DNA from: Bordetella pseudohinzii
GTDB taxonomy: Bacteria > Pseudomonadota > Gammaproteobacteria > Burkholderiales > Burkholderiaceae_B
DNA: 64,000 nt
Assembly (NCBI RefSeq): GCF_000657795.2
Contig: NZ_JHEP02000006.1
Coordinates: forward strand, 186,001 to 250,000
Direction: 5' to 3'
Part shown: positions 8,630 through 13,124 of the stretch, piece by piece
Layout of the letters: each line of letters opens with the position of its first letter
Position numbering within the stretch: the first letter of the stretch is position 1
Notes under the pieces: generated by a model
Seen by the model: the letters and a program-made list of their open reading frames with translations, nothing else
What the model was told of the DNA's origin: nothing
Databases searched by the model: none
Translations under genes and position numbers: made by a program

Positions 8630-9000
8630 TTGATCTGTCCTCGTGAGCCCTGCGCTTCACGGAAAGCGCCAAGCGCCTGCGGATAAAGTGCAATACACTC
8701 GGCTCGGACGCTGAGTGAGCGATTCCTATTCATCCATGCGCGGCGCTTCTGCGTGGTCATGTCGAGGATACCGCCCCATTTGTGTCAAAGCGTGTCTACA
8801 AATTGCTAATTTTCGTGGTGCCGATAGGTAAATCCATACGGGTGTGATCTACTTTTTTTTACACGAGCGTGTACTGACAAGGTAAGGCAGGACGGTATGA
8901 GATCCGCGTTTTCCATTTCCACGTTTTGCGTATCGGGCCGCGCACCGGCCCTCGCCACGGCTTGCCGTCACGAGCGAGGCCGAAGGTGACGGGCCGCGCC
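8630..9000. other. Intergenic region before the pseudo-receiver regulator (about 370 bp)
   Basis: No gene seen. It holds an AT-rich stretch (about 8779-8860) unlike the surroundings, suitable for a promoter, a run of eight T at 8853-8860, and a small inverted repeat ACACG-AG-CGTGT at 8861-8872. A weak hairpin GCGCTT/AAGCGC follows the dehydrogenase gene but lacks a T tract. Confidence 0.45.
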
Positions 9001-9810
9001 ATGCGTGTCCCGTCCGATTTCTCCGCGGATCCCTCTTCGGCCAGCCAGCCGGTCAGCGCGCCCAACGCGGGCGTGTTGCTGCTGTGCGTGGATTTCGGCC
9101 AGTGCCAGGCCTTGTCCCAGTCGCTGGTGGATTCCGGGTTTCCGGTCGCCAGCTGCACTGAGTTGTCGGTCATGTATGAGCTGCATGGCCAGCACCGCCA
9201 TGGTTTCGTGATTCTCGCGGCTTCGCCGCGGGAGGTGCTGGTGGCCGCGGCGCGTCTGCGTACGCTGGCGCCCAGCGTGGGCATCGTGGCGCTGACCCCG
9301 CCGCTATCTTCTGAAGCGCGGGTGCAGCTGTTGCTGTGCGGCGTCGACACCTGTCTGGAGCAGGGCAGCAGCCACCAGGAGATCGCCGCGGTGCTGCAGG
9401 CGCTCGCGCGGCGCGGCGTGGCCCAGGCCCTGGCATCGCCGCCGGTGCAGCGGCCTTCGTCCCTGCCGGATCCCAACCCGCCGCCCGGCGCGGAAAACGG
9501 CCATGCCGAACGCGGCTGGCGCTTGCTCGAAGACGGTTGGGTATTGGCCAGCCCTGACAATGCGCGGCTGACGCTCACGGGCGCCGAACGCGCCCTGCTG
9601 CAGGCCCTGGTGCAGGCGCCCACGCAGCGGTTGAGCCGCGAAGATCTGCTGGACGTGGTCGACGTCAGGCCCGGCCGCGGCGAACGCGCCCGCCTGCGCT
9701 ATGTGGACGTGCTGATCTGCCGCCTGCGCCGCAAGGCGACGGACAGGCAGTTACGCCTGCCCATCCGCGCCGTGCATGGCTGGGGCTATATGTTCAGCGG
9801 CAACGAATAA
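9001..9810 (+). CDS. OmpR-type winged-helix regulator with degenerate receiver domain
   Basis: About 269 residues. The N-terminal half follows a receiver-like fold (GVLLLCVDFGQCQALSQSL), but the position of the phosphoacceptor Asp reads HGFVILAASP and the Lys region reads CLEQGSS, so phosphorylation is unlikely. The C-terminal half is an OmpR/PhoB winged helix (LTLTGAERALLQALVQAP, RLRYVDVLICRLRRK, IRAVHGWGYMF). No histidine kinase lies nearby. The start is open: ATG 9001 is used, but in-frame GTG 8986 has GAGG 7 nt upstream and is almost as good. Target genes unknown. Confidence 0.8.
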   Translation: MRVPSDFSADPSSASQPVSAPNAGVLLLCVDFGQCQALSQSLVDSGFPVASCTELSVMYELHGQHRHGFVILAASPREVLVAAARLRTLAPSVGIVALTPPLSSEARVQLLLCGVDTCLEQGSSHQEIAAVLQALARRGVAQALASPPVQRPSSLPDPNPPPGAENGHAERGWRLLEDGWVLASPDNARLTLTGAERALLQALVQAPTQRLSREDLLDVVDVRPGRGERARLRYVDVLICRLRRKATDRQLRLPIRAVHGWGYMFSGNE

Positions 9811-9815
9811 GGCGG

Positions 9816-10031
9816 CTAGGCCTCTTCGTCGGGGCGCGACAACGCGCCGGGCAGCACGTCGTCTTCAGGGGTGATTACGCCGGGATCGCCCGGCTGGGTC
9901 ATCACGCGCCCGCTGCGCGGCATGCCGGCGACTTGCCGGTTCGCGCTGGGCATGGGCATTTCCGCGGTGCCCTGGAACCGCCGTTGCTGGGTGACGCTGG
10001 CCGACTGGAGAAACTCACGAGCAATTGCCAT
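9816..10031 (-). CDS. Small protein of unknown function (71 aa)
   Basis: Not recognised. ATG 10031 (MAIAREFLQSASVTQQRR) is preceded by a clear AAGGAGT ribosome site at good spacing, the main reason to believe the gene. The protein is hydrophilic, rich in Pro, Arg and Gln, with an acidic tail ending RPDEEA, and has no membrane segment, signal peptide or Cys pairs. It looks largely disordered. It is divergent from the NadQ-like gene; the shared promoter region contains a 32-bp inverted repeat (10104-10135). Confidence 0.55.
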   Translation of the reverse strand: MAIAREFLQSASVTQQRRFQGTAEMPMPSANRQVAGMPRSGRVMTQPGDPGVITPEDDVLPGALSRPDEEA

Positions 10032-10103
10032 GATCCGACTCCTTGTTGAGCGTGCCGCACGCAGGCCCCGTAAAAAGGCCTGTGGATCCATATTACGCGG
10101 CAG

Positions 10104-10188: not shown

Positions 10189-11085
10189 TTGACTGACGCC
10201 CTAGACCGCTCTCTTTCCGCCGAACTGGTGGCCGTGCTCGTCGCCGTGACGGCCGGCCAGCCGCGCGTGCTGACCACCGATGGCGGCCAGCTGCTGCCGG
10301 CCGGTCCCTTCGAACTGAGCCACCGTTCGCTGCAGGCCGGTTTGCGCGCCTGGGTCGAGACCCAGACCCATCATCCGCTGGGCTATGTCGAGCAGCTCTA
10401 CACCTTCGCCGACAGCGATCGCTCCAATGCGGCCGGCGCGCGCGTCATCTCGGTCAGCTACCTGGCCCTGACGCGCGAGGCGGGCGACACCGGCGTGGCC
10501 CAGGTCGGCTGGCAGGATTGGTATCGCTATTTCCCGTGGGAAGACCGGCGCGGCGGCCTGCCCGGCGTGCTGGACGATATCGAACGCCGCCTGCGGCAAT
10601 GGGCCGGGCGCGATGCGCGCCGCGGCCAGCGCCTGGCCTACAGCTTTGGGCTGGATGGCGCGCCCTGGAACGAAGATATGGTCTTGCAGCGCTATGAGCT
10701 GCTTTACGAGGCGGGCCTGGTGCCCGAGGCGGGCGCCGGATCGGCGCTGCCCGGCCAGGCCATGGGCCATGACCATCGCCGCATCCTGGCCACCGGCATC
10801 GCGCGGCTGCGCGCCAAGATCAAGTACCGCCCCGTGGTTTTCGAACTCATGCCGGCCGAATTCACCCTGCTGCAATTGCAGACGACCGTCGAGGCCTTGG
10901 CCGGCCGCGAATTGCACAAGCAGAATTTCCGCCGCCTCATCGAGCAGCAGGACCTGGTCGAGGAGACCGGCGGCATGGCCAGCGGCACGGCGGGCCGGCC
11001 GGCCAAGCTCTTCCGCTTTCGGCGCGACGTCATGCTGGAGCGGGCCATCTCCGGCAGCAAGCTGCCTTTGGCGCGGCAATATTGA
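10189..11085 (+). CDS. nadQ: COG4111-type Nudix-fold transcriptional regulator of NAD synthesis (NadQ-like)
   Basis: 298-residue protein with a Nudix-like N-terminal domain lacking a functional Nudix box and a C-terminal winged helix (VFELMPAEFTLLQLQTTVEALAG then LHKQNFRRLIEQQDLVEETGG). This architecture matches the COG4111 regulators called NadQ in comparative regulon work, which repress de novo NAD synthesis genes. The following gene is nadC, and two copies of a 19-bp palindrome lie between them. The start appears to be TTG 10189; no ATG precedes the conserved sequence. The family call is strong; the regulatory role is inferred from family and neighbour. Confidence 0.8.
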   Translation: MTDALDRSLSAELVAVLVAVTAGQPRVLTTDGGQLLPAGPFELSHRSLQAGLRAWVETQTHHPLGYVEQLYTFADSDRSNAAGARVISVSYLALTREAGDTGVAQVGWQDWYRYFPWEDRRGGLPGVLDDIERRLRQWAGRDARRGQRLAYSFGLDGAPWNEDMVLQRYELLYEAGLVPEAGAGSALPGQAMGHDHRRILATGIARLRAKIKYRPVVFELMPAEFTLLQLQTTVEALAGRELHKQNFRRLIEQQDLVEETGGMASGTAGRPAKLFRFRRDVMLERAISGSKLPLARQY

Positions 11086-11115
11086 AGCAAGGGGGCGGCA
11101 ACTGCCCGGGCGGGC

Positions 11116-11145
11116 TTGACAGCTATTTATGCTCAGTATTAGCAT
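11116..11145 (+). promoter_or_regulatory. Probable sigma-70 promoter for nadC
   Basis: A perfect -35 TTGACA at 11116-11121 is followed 18 bp later by TAGCAT at 11140-11145 as a weak -10. Operator 1 (11128-11146) covers the spacer and -10, so a bound repressor would block RNA polymerase. An alternative -10, TATATA at 11182-11187, would give a nearly leaderless nadC mRNA. Confidence 0.5.
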
Positions 11146-11146
11146 A
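11128..11146. promoter_or_regulatory. NadQ-type operator 1
   Basis: TATGCTCAGTATTAGCATA is an 8+3+8 palindrome with one mismatched pair; one flanking T/A pair extends it. It shares the pattern TATRCTCA-N3-TKAGCATA with operator 2, centre to centre 56 bp away. It overlaps the predicted nadC promoter. Confidence 0.65.
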
Positions 11147-11183
11147 AGTCGCAGGGGCATCCCGCCATTTTTTTAACGCCATA

Positions 11184-11202
11184 TATACTCAAAATGAGCA
11201 TA
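11184..11202. promoter_or_regulatory. NadQ-type operator 2, overlapping the nadC start codon
   Basis: TATACTCAAAATGAGCATA is an 8+3+8 palindrome with one mismatched pair. The nadC ATG (11194-11196) lies at its centre, so codons 1-3 are part of the operator. No Shine-Dalgarno sequence can be seen before this ATG. Confidence 0.65.
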
Positions 11203-12084
11203 AAAACCGTCAGCGCCCAGCCCGCCCAGGAGACGGCGCGCATCATCCCCAACCTGCCCCAGGTCATGCTGGAGCCGCTGGTTCGCGCCGCCCTGTTGGA
11301 GGACCTGGGACGCGCGGGCGACATCACCAGCGACGCCATCGTGCCGGCCGAGGCCCGCGGGCAGACCCGCTTGGTGGCGCGCCAGCCGGGCGTGCTGGCC
11401 GGGCTGGAGCTGGCCCGGCTGGCCTTCCGGCTGATCGATCCGGAGATCCGTTTTCAGGTGTTGCTGGCCGACGGCGCGCGCCTGGCGCCCGGCAGTGAGA
11501 TCGCCCTTATCGAAGGCCCGGCGCGCGGCATGTTGACGGCCGAACGCACGGCGCTGAACTTCCTCGGCCACCTGAGCGGCGTGGCCACCGCCACCGCCTC
11601 CATCGCCGACGCCATCGCCCATACGCATTGCAAGGTGACCTGCACGCGCAAGACCTTGCCCGGGCTGCGCGCCGTCCAGAAGTACGCGGTGCGGGTGGGC
11701 GGCGGCAGCAACCATCGCCACGGCCTGGACGACGCGGTGCTGATCAAGGACAACCACGTGGCCTTCGCCGGCGGCGTGACTCAGGCCCTGGCGCGCGCCC
11801 GCGCGGCGGTCGGCCACATGGTCAAGATCGAACTCGAGGTCGACACGCTGGCGCAGCTCGACGAGGCGCTGGCCGCCGGCGTCGATGTAGTGCTGCTGGA
11901 CAACATGGATAACGACACCCTGCGCGAGGCGGTGCGCCGCGTCGGCGGGCGCGCCGTGACCGAGGCGTCGGGCCGCATCACGCCCGAGACCGCGCCGGCC
12001 ATCGCCGCGACCGGGGTCGATCTGATGGCAGTGGGTTGGCTGACGCATAGCGCGCGGGTCCTGGATATCGGCCTGGACAGCTGA
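11194..12084 (+). CDS. nadC: Nicotinate-nucleotide pyrophosphorylase (carboxylating), NadC
   Basis: Quinolinate phosphoribosyltransferase: quinolinate plus PRPP gives nicotinate mononucleotide, the step joining de novo synthesis to NAD. 296 residues, normal length. Visible signatures: [54 protein letters not shown] and the barrel-end motifs [10 protein letters not shown] and EASGRIT. The start at 11194 has no ribosome site and lies within operator 2; a later start at MLEPLV is possible but would drop conserved N-terminal residues. nadA and nadB are not nearby, so the pathway is split on this chromosome. Confidence 0.96.
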
Positions 12085-12158: not shown

Positions 12159-13124
12159 ATGCTGCGATTGTTTGCTTCTTTCTTGCTGGCCTTGCTGGCC
12201 GCGTGGGCCGCGCCGGCCCGGGCCGATACGGATTTTCCGGTCCGGCCCATCACCATCATCGTGACCTTCCCGCCGGGCGGCGGCACCGATCTGCTGGCGC
12301 GCAAGCTGGGCGCGGCCTTGCAGCAGGACCTCGGCCAAGCCGTGGTGGTGGAAAACCGGCCCGGCGCCAGCGGCAATATCGGCGCGCGCGCCGTGGCCGA
12401 AGCCAGGCCGGATGGCTACACCCTGCTGATGGTCAACAGTTCCTTTGCCGTCAATCCGGGCGTATTCCGGCATCTGGATTTTTCCCCCGAGCGCGATTTC
12501 ACCGCGGTGATCAATGTGGCCTTCGTGCCCTCCGTCATCGTGACGCGCGCCGGCTCGCCGCTGGGCAGCCTGGGGCAGGCGCTGCGCCTGGGCCTGCCCG
12601 AGGATCCCATGCCTTATGCCTCTTGCGGCAATGGCACGCCGCAGCACCTGGCCGCCGAAATGCTGCGCGCGCGCAGCCGCTCGGCGCTGCAGCAAGTGCC
12701 CTACAAGGGCTGCGGCCCGGCGCTCACGGATGTGATGTCCGGCCATGTGCCCCTGGGCGTGGTGACGGCGTCCAGCGCGGCGCCCTTCATCCGCGCGGGC
12801 AAGCTGCGCGCGTTGGCGGTGACGTCGGCGCGGCGCTCGCCCCTCATGCCGGACGTGCCCACCGTGGCCGAGCAGGGCTGGCCCGGCTATGAACTGGATC
12901 AATGGCATGGCCTGCTGGCGCCGGCGGCCACGCCGCCGGCGGTCGTGGCGCGCCTGAACCGGGCAGTGGCCGCCATCATGGCGCGGCCGGCCACGCAGGC
13001 CGAGCTGCAAGACCTGGGTTTCAATCCGGTGGCGAGCAATCCCGAGGACTTCGAGCGCCTGGTGCAAGCCGACATTCGGCGTTTCCGCGCGCTGACGGCC
13101 AGCATGGCGCTGCGCGCGGACTGA
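12159..13124 (+). CDS. Bug/TctC-family periplasmic solute receptor
   Basis: Extracytoplasmic binding protein of the tripartite tricarboxylate transporter family, greatly expanded in Bordetella. 321 residues with a signal peptide ending about ARA-DTDFP at residue 22-23. Typical Bug features follow: PVRPITIIVTFPPGGGTDLLARKL, VVVENRPGASGNIGA, ARPDGYTLL. Ligand unknown; family members bind carboxylates and some bind nicotinate or amino acids. The position after nadC makes a pyridine carboxylate an attractive but unproven idea. No membrane subunits are adjacent. It ends back to back with the DUF533 gene. Confidence 0.9.
   Translation: MLRLFASFLLALLAAWAAPARADTDFPVRPITIIVTFPPGGGTDLLARKLGAALQQDLGQAVVVENRPGASGNIGARAVAEARPDGYTLLMVNSSFAVNPGVFRHLDFSPERDFTAVINVAFVPSVIVTRAGSPLGSLGQALRLGLPEDPMPYASCGNGTPQHLAAEMLRARSRSALQQVPYKGCGPALTDVMSGHVPLGVVTASSAAPFIRAGKLRALAVTSARRSPLMPDVPTVAEQGWPGYELDQWHGLLAPAATPPAVVARLNRAVAAIMARPATQAELQDLGFNPVASNPEDFERLVQADIRRFRALTASMALRAD

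Follow-up and report, generated by a model that had tools for sequence, protein, structure and literature searches.

Paired predicted NadQ operators at the promoter and the start codon of nadC in Bordetella pseudohinzii

The window, i.e., the whole stretch of DNA that was analysed, comprises 64,000 nucleotides of the Bordetella pseudohinzii genome. It contains a presumed regulator gene, nadQ, followed on the same strand by nadC and by a gene for a periplasmic binding protein. Two predicted operators, called box 1 and box 2, lie around the predicted promoter and the start of nadC. The features discussed below are the following, in window coordinates.

10189..11085, + strand: nadQ, presumed repressor gene, 298 amino acids, with a TTG start according to the open reading frame tool (NrtR_WHD and 7q91 matches)
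11116..11121, + strand: predicted -35 hexamer TTGACA of the nadC promoter (promoter search of 11000-11300; loci of relatives)
11128..11146, + strand: box 1 (O1), predicted NadQ operator TATGCTCA-GTA-TTAGCATA (match to pattern and consensus)
11140..11145, + strand: predicted -10 hexamer TAGCAT, common to the right half of box 1 (loci of relatives)
11152..11153, + strand: predicted nadC transcription start (placed from the -10 hexamer)
11168..11174, + strand: T-tract, seven T, ending 10 bp 5' of the 17-mer core of box 2 (kept in relatives)
11184..11202, + strand: box 2 (O2), predicted NadQ operator TATACTCA-AAA-TGAGCATA, holding the nadC start codon (match to pattern and consensus)
11194..12084, + strand: nadC, quinolinate phosphoribosyltransferase, 296 amino acids (TIGR00078; frame in relatives)
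12159..13124, + strand: gene for a Bug/TctC-type periplasmic binding protein (Bug69/Bug27-like), 3' of nadC (PF03401; Bug27 2qpq)

Further upstream, positions 8926-9810 (+) encode a protein with an OmpR-type DNA-binding C-terminus, in which a receiver domain is absent by Pfam. A 91-aa open reading frame without a Pfam match lies 5' of nadQ on the opposite strand, at 9816-10091 (-).

The gene upstream of nadC had been described as NadQ-like (COG4111), and this assignment holds. Residues 10-296, nearly the whole length of the protein, match the NadQ transcription factor of PDB entry 7q91 (E 3.6e-113), and the C-terminus carries an NrtR-like winged helix (PF21906, NrtR_WHD, 84.5 bits versus a cut-off of 27). 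The score for the equivalog of the ADP-ribose-responsive NrtR (NF050029) was 52.3 bits, below the cut-off of 400. Among the best 80 of 330 relatives kept, the closest named NadQ comes from B. hinzii (98% identity). NadQ reportedly binds DNA and responds to ATP. As for its neighbors, nadC was recognized by TIGR00078 (328.3 bits versus a cut-off of 198.4), and the gene 3' of nadC belongs to PF03401, its closest solved chain being Bug27 (2qpq, E 4.4e-115). In B. bronchiseptica, a NadQ-family repressor and nicotinic acid are said to affect nadC expression. A nadQ-nadC-bug69 operon occurs in Bordetella and Achromobacter (PMC11452294), and the available text of the same paper states, citing RegPrecise, that NadQ controls nadC and tctC in Delftia and Comamonas.

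The other de novo NAD genes were sought in the genome from which the window was taken. nadA was absent by a search whose control was positive in 12 of 14 genomes. The best nadB match stayed below the cut-off (358 versus 453 bits; only 5 of 13 control matches pass it) and is a succinate dehydrogenase (sdhA, 878 bits, cut-off 727); the second-best match reached 35 bits. By these searches, nadC is the only de novo NAD gene that this Bordetella retains, and its operator anatomy is now given.

The preliminary description had pointed to two matching 19-mers before nadC. These are found at 11128-11146 and 11184-11202, 56 bp apart from start to start. With up to three mismatches, the pattern derived from them gave four strand-hits in the window at two places, which are boxes 1 and 2. 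Shuffled versions of the window yielded a mean of 0.28 strand-hits and at most 2, and four were reached in 0 of 100 shuffles. In the whole genome (4,538,520 bases, 48 contigs), where a search for the pattern had been proposed, boxes 1 and 2 are the only places matched without mismatch. The stricter palindrome ATRCTCANNNTGAGYAT has box 2 as its sole exact place in the genome; with one mismatch it occurs at three places, box 1 among them and the other two within long open reading frames. An Rfam search of 10900-11400 returned two matches, both far below their gathering scores.

The NadQ consensus has been given as ttATRCTCannntGAGYATaa, with nadABC as core targets, in the available text on the NadQ regulon (PMC5343134). 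Box 2 matches the core of this consensus at 14 of 14 positions and box 1 at 13 of 14. Because of this match and the NadQ identity of the neighboring gene, the boxes are probably NadQ operators of the known kind. The occurrence of the same box before nadA in relatives points in the same direction, and on these sequence grounds the earlier reading of the boxes as NadQ operators is retained.

The boxes were followed through a set of related loci. NadQ was sought in 121 family genomes, with a match in 67, and in named genome contigs, from which the best 80 of 330 relatives were kept; 36 further stretches were added. Of the 146 nadQ loci, 24 lack a nadC downstream of nadQ in the same orientation within the stretch; the other 122 nadQ-nadC loci comprise 101 distinct sequences. 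A first counting rule, in which letters were partly fixed (AG[CT]AT was required and GA excluded in box 1), gave two boxes in 93 of the 101. A neutral rule without fixed box halves took the highest-scoring box around the nadC start, provided that it reached 11/14, together with the best one upstream thereof. It gave 94 two-box and 7 one-box loci, so that the counts hardly differ; denominators of 94 refer below to the neutral rule and those of 93 to the first. Many loci are closely related, one cluster alone holding about 30 similar Achromobacter leaders, and locus counts are therefore not independent events. Alignment of the nadQ-nadC gaps across relatives, suggested at the outset, shows the paired boxes kept in 94 of 101 distinct loci. 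Along with the genome-wide pattern search, this speaks against the possibility, raised in the preliminary description, that the motif is poorly conserved or scattered at random through the genome.

Box 1 had been placed over the likely promoter, and the comparison bears this out. If the box were symmetric, its right half would read GAGCAT. It reads TAGCAT in 84 of 94 loci and TAGTAT in 5, with other sequences in the remaining 5. A TTGACA-like hexamer with at least 5 of 6 matches stands 17-19 bp 5' of this half in 87 of 94 loci, compared with 8 of 94 before the right half of box 2, and a -35 match of 5/6 occurs at 0.7% of random places in nadQ. The conserved TTGACA-N17/18-TAGCAT promoter sits 49-78 bp 5' of the ATG, and the pair of the window, with an 18-bp spacer, is the only promoter-like site in 11000-11300. 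The predicted -10 hexamer lies within the right half of box 1, and the asymmetry of the box is explained, as far as sequence comparison goes, by this predicted double use. Since the right half doubles as the -10, the first T in the right half-site of the original pattern (TKAGCATA) is the first base of the hexamer. Transcription of nadC is predicted to start at 11152 or 11153. Given this promoter, a leader of about 41 nt is expected rather than a leaderless message. A small group of loci deviates (L093, L098, L190, L191): box 1 lacks TAGCAT, the start codon lies outside box 2, and the T-tract is kept. In L093 and L098, TTGACA is found further upstream than usual. In this group, the left half TATGCT may act as the -10.

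Box 2 contains the ATG at 11194 and, as had been noted, no Shine-Dalgarno sequence precedes it in the window. The relatives agree, with a Shine-Dalgarno-like string before the box 2 codon in 1 of 93 loci. The central codon of the box is ATG in 83 of 94 loci, TTG in 6, GTG in 3, CTG in 1 and ACG in 1, and in 91 of 94 it lies in the NadC frame. By the first rule (93 loci), the codon is in frame in 91; none of these has a stop within 60 codons, and a tail of 24-47 codons was found in the 87 loci where the EDLG motif was found. With the frame open from the box 2 codon in these 91 of 93 loci, a start of nadC at Met25 is not favored. Where the box holds a codon other than ATG, an in-frame ATG follows 12-15 nt further downstream in 8 of 10 loci; judging from these sequences, this ATG is the likelier start. 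The right half of box 2 begins with G in 94 of 94 loci. The full score of 14/14 is reached by box 2 in 81 of 94 loci and by box 1 in none of 94. Owing to its better fit to the consensus and to its freedom from double use as a -10, box 2 is probably the stronger site.

Between the boxes, the T-tract keeps a fixed position relative to box 2. In 77 of 94 loci, at least 6 of the 7 positions from -16 to -10 of the box 2 17-mer are T, and at least five T stand at this offset in 87 of 93. The background of such T-rich 7-mers in the loci is 0.145%, and none were found at 2148 other leader positions examined. At the same offset before box 1, five T occur in 1 of 93 loci and more in none; the mirrored count of A 3' of box 2 never exceeds 4 (93 loci). 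The ATG follows the tract at a distance of about 19-25 nt.

The same arrangement was found at other genes. Exact boxes are present in 54 of the 121 family genomes, and 20 stretches were taken from exact boxes not adjoining nadQ, plus that of genome G072. According to HMM searches, 8 of the 20 boxes stand before nadA (L217-L220, L222-L225), one of the genes at which the preliminary description had proposed to look for the pattern. A further 5 lie before a gene for a branched-chain amino-acid-type periplasmic binding protein (L209, L211, L212, L213, L227) and one before nadC (L210, the identical place to L192). The other six (L214, L215, L216, L221, L226, L228) fall within open reading frames and seem to be there by chance. 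From -17 to -10, each of the 8 nadA boxes has T at seven or all eight positions; the start codon lies outside the box and, in L222, follows AAGGAG. The five transporter boxes have 6-7 T in these 8 positions. The gene behind them is a candidate NAD-precursor transporter under NadQ control. The five genomes concerned are without a close nadC. In L222 and L223, before nadA, a longer palindrome, with a predicted stem of about 13-16 pairs, encloses box 1, and 7-8 T come a few bases after it; such an operator might by itself fold into a terminator-like hairpin.

When the start codon has moved out of box 2, six or all seven positions of the tract are still T in 8 of 10 loci, and the tract also persists in L190 and L191. 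Its presence before the nadA boxes and its persistence where the nadC codon has moved tie the tract to the operator and not to the start codon. A role as terminator of nadQ is disfavored, since the tract is kept where nadQ does not adjoin (L102, with 2.4 kb between; L190-L192). Among 299 genomes of the phylum, 44 have a box, many of these probably by chance, and 4 have T5 at about the offset of the tract (the own genome, two of the same order and one other). This scarcity suggests that the tract is a feature of this order and not of NadQ binding, on a sample with few near relatives among the 299.

Taken together, the locus is best read as a case of double repression of nadC by NadQ at two operators, an interpretation that we consider probable. 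NadQ at box 1 would cover the spacer and the -10 and thereby keep RNA polymerase off the nadC promoter. Box 2 lies downstream of the transcription start as predicted from the conserved promoter; NadQ bound there, about 32 bp past that start and on the start codon, would stop a polymerase that had already started. Upon release of NadQ, nadC would be transcribed with a short leader without a Shine-Dalgarno sequence. Control would extend to nadC and probably also to the Bug-type gene behind it, presumably by co-transcription. Roadblock repression is established for PurR, GalR, CcpA, CodY and LacI (PMC10310618, PMC4132739, available text). A LacI roadblock 30 bp from the start leaks more than distant ones (PMC4132739), from which it follows that box 2 might block only weakly by itself.

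Several loci argue against the simple form of this model. One box only is present in 7 of the 101 distinct loci, and nadC is lacking behind nadQ, within the stretch, in 24 of 146. A search for nadC in 26 further genomes found a match in 15. In G100, G120 and G050, boxes and tract stand before a nadC located away from nadQ. In G084, G115, G022 and G040, which have nadQ, nadC is 69-72% identical to that of the window and no NadQ box above 11/14 was found. A nadC match was absent in eight NadQ-bearing genomes (G042, G072, G102, G011, G063, G079, G013, G030).

The double-repression model leaves the T-tract to be accounted for, and several roles can be weighed. Tentatively, the tract and box 2 might form a composite element, in which NadQ stalls the polymerase near a U-rich, often hairpin-led stretch and release ensues, roadblock and weak terminator working together. 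A U-tract before a roadblock could aid the release of the polymerase. This idea is in line with the fixed offset of the tract to box 2, with its company to box 2 when the start codon moves and also at nadA, and with its orientation, the T being on the coding strand without a mirrored A-tract. It would also meet the leakiness of LacI roadblocks near a promoter, for which the authors consider a sigma-retaining, Mfd-resistant polymerase or easier dislodging, the latter being favored by their fits (PMC4132739, available text). Hairpins give a mixed answer. The best hairpin ending at the tract was compared with 60 dinucleotide shuffles in 40 leader clusters covering 89 loci. It was stabler than the shuffled mean in 34 of the 40 (sign test 8e-6), under rules chosen after the sequences had been seen and with clusters that are not fully independent. 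However, single clusters reached p 0.05 in only 6 of 40 cases, and the Stouffer combination gave p = 1, owing to some p values of exactly 1. Moreover, the hairpin of the window itself has 3 bp (p 0.33), no intrinsic terminator was called there, and several loci have the tract without any hairpin. It is therefore with reserve that we propose a roadblock-coupled release element which might let a roadblock act near a promoter, reused before nadC, nadA and perhaps the transporter gene in Alcaligenaceae and Comamonadaceae.

Less likely, the tract could, as a U-rich stretch, help ribosomes to bind a message that lacks a Shine-Dalgarno sequence. Its distance from the ATG and the near absence of Shine-Dalgarno-like strings (1 of 93 loci) would suit such a function. 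A translation role is nevertheless weakened by the loci in which the codon has moved 12-15 nt downstream and the tract has stayed with box 2 (8 loci; L190, L191), and by the nadA boxes, whose start codon is not part of the box and in L222 comes after AAGGAG.

A/T tracts bend DNA. NadQ dimers at both boxes could loop the DNA with the T-tract as a bend, which we regard as similarly unlikely. Nearly all loci have two boxes, and the spacings appear phased over the 93 related loci (R 0.57). The suggestion of a loop, made in the preliminary description, is weakened by the spacing, for which 30 different values between 45 and 201 bp were counted (93 loci). Over these values helical phase is not significant (R 0.30, p about 0.06), and the 93 loci are not independent; fixed-phase looping is thus not supported by the box spacings. 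Furthermore, it is from box 2 alone that the tract keeps its distance, and box 1 has no comparable tract before it. The tract may otherwise take part in DNA bending or in stopping readthrough.

The earlier proposal of a leaderless nadC mRNA begun from TATATA/TATACT in box 2 is very improbable: TATATA is indeed found at 11182-11187, spaced to put +1 on the ATG, and a Shine-Dalgarno sequence is lacking, but for the left half of box 2 taken as a -10, a -35 matching at 4/6 or better is present in 1 of 93 loci, whereas the better, conserved promoter upstream at box 1 has one of at least 5/6 in 88 of 93.

In regulator, operator and target, the case belongs to a known kind. It shares the regulator family, the palindrome of 17-21 bp and the targets nadC and nadA with the NadQ (COG4111) regulon described for alpha- and betaproteobacteria (PMC5343134); to the available text of that account, the paired boxes, the start-codon box, the common -10 and the T-tract are added here. 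The gene order of the window is identical to that of nadQ-nadC-bug69 in Bordetella and Achromobacter (PMC11452294), and in comparison with the available text of that paper the operator anatomy is given only here. The succession of promoter box, T-tract and start-codon box is new with respect to the available portions of both accounts, RegPrecise entries and supplements aside. As these entries and supplements lie outside the literature comparison, an earlier notice of the paired boxes is possible. In the roadblocks by PurR, GalR, CcpA, CodY and LacI, as described in the available text (PMC10310618, PMC4132739), the repressor site lies past the transcription start, in the path of the polymerase, as is predicted here. 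What sets box 2 apart from those sites is its overlap with the start codon about 32 bp past the predicted +1, the conserved T-tract in front of it and the second operator at the promoter. This conserved tract before the proximal NadQ box is unaccounted for in the available text of PMC5343134 and PMC11452294. The locus is a compact system in which to study how a repressor can block elongation at a very short distance from a promoter, at which LacI roadblocks are leaky.

In L116 and L118, nadC lies about 1.6 kb from nadQ. A single exact box stands there behind a hairpin and a short T run, and a Shine-Dalgarno-like string and an ATG are located downstream of the box.
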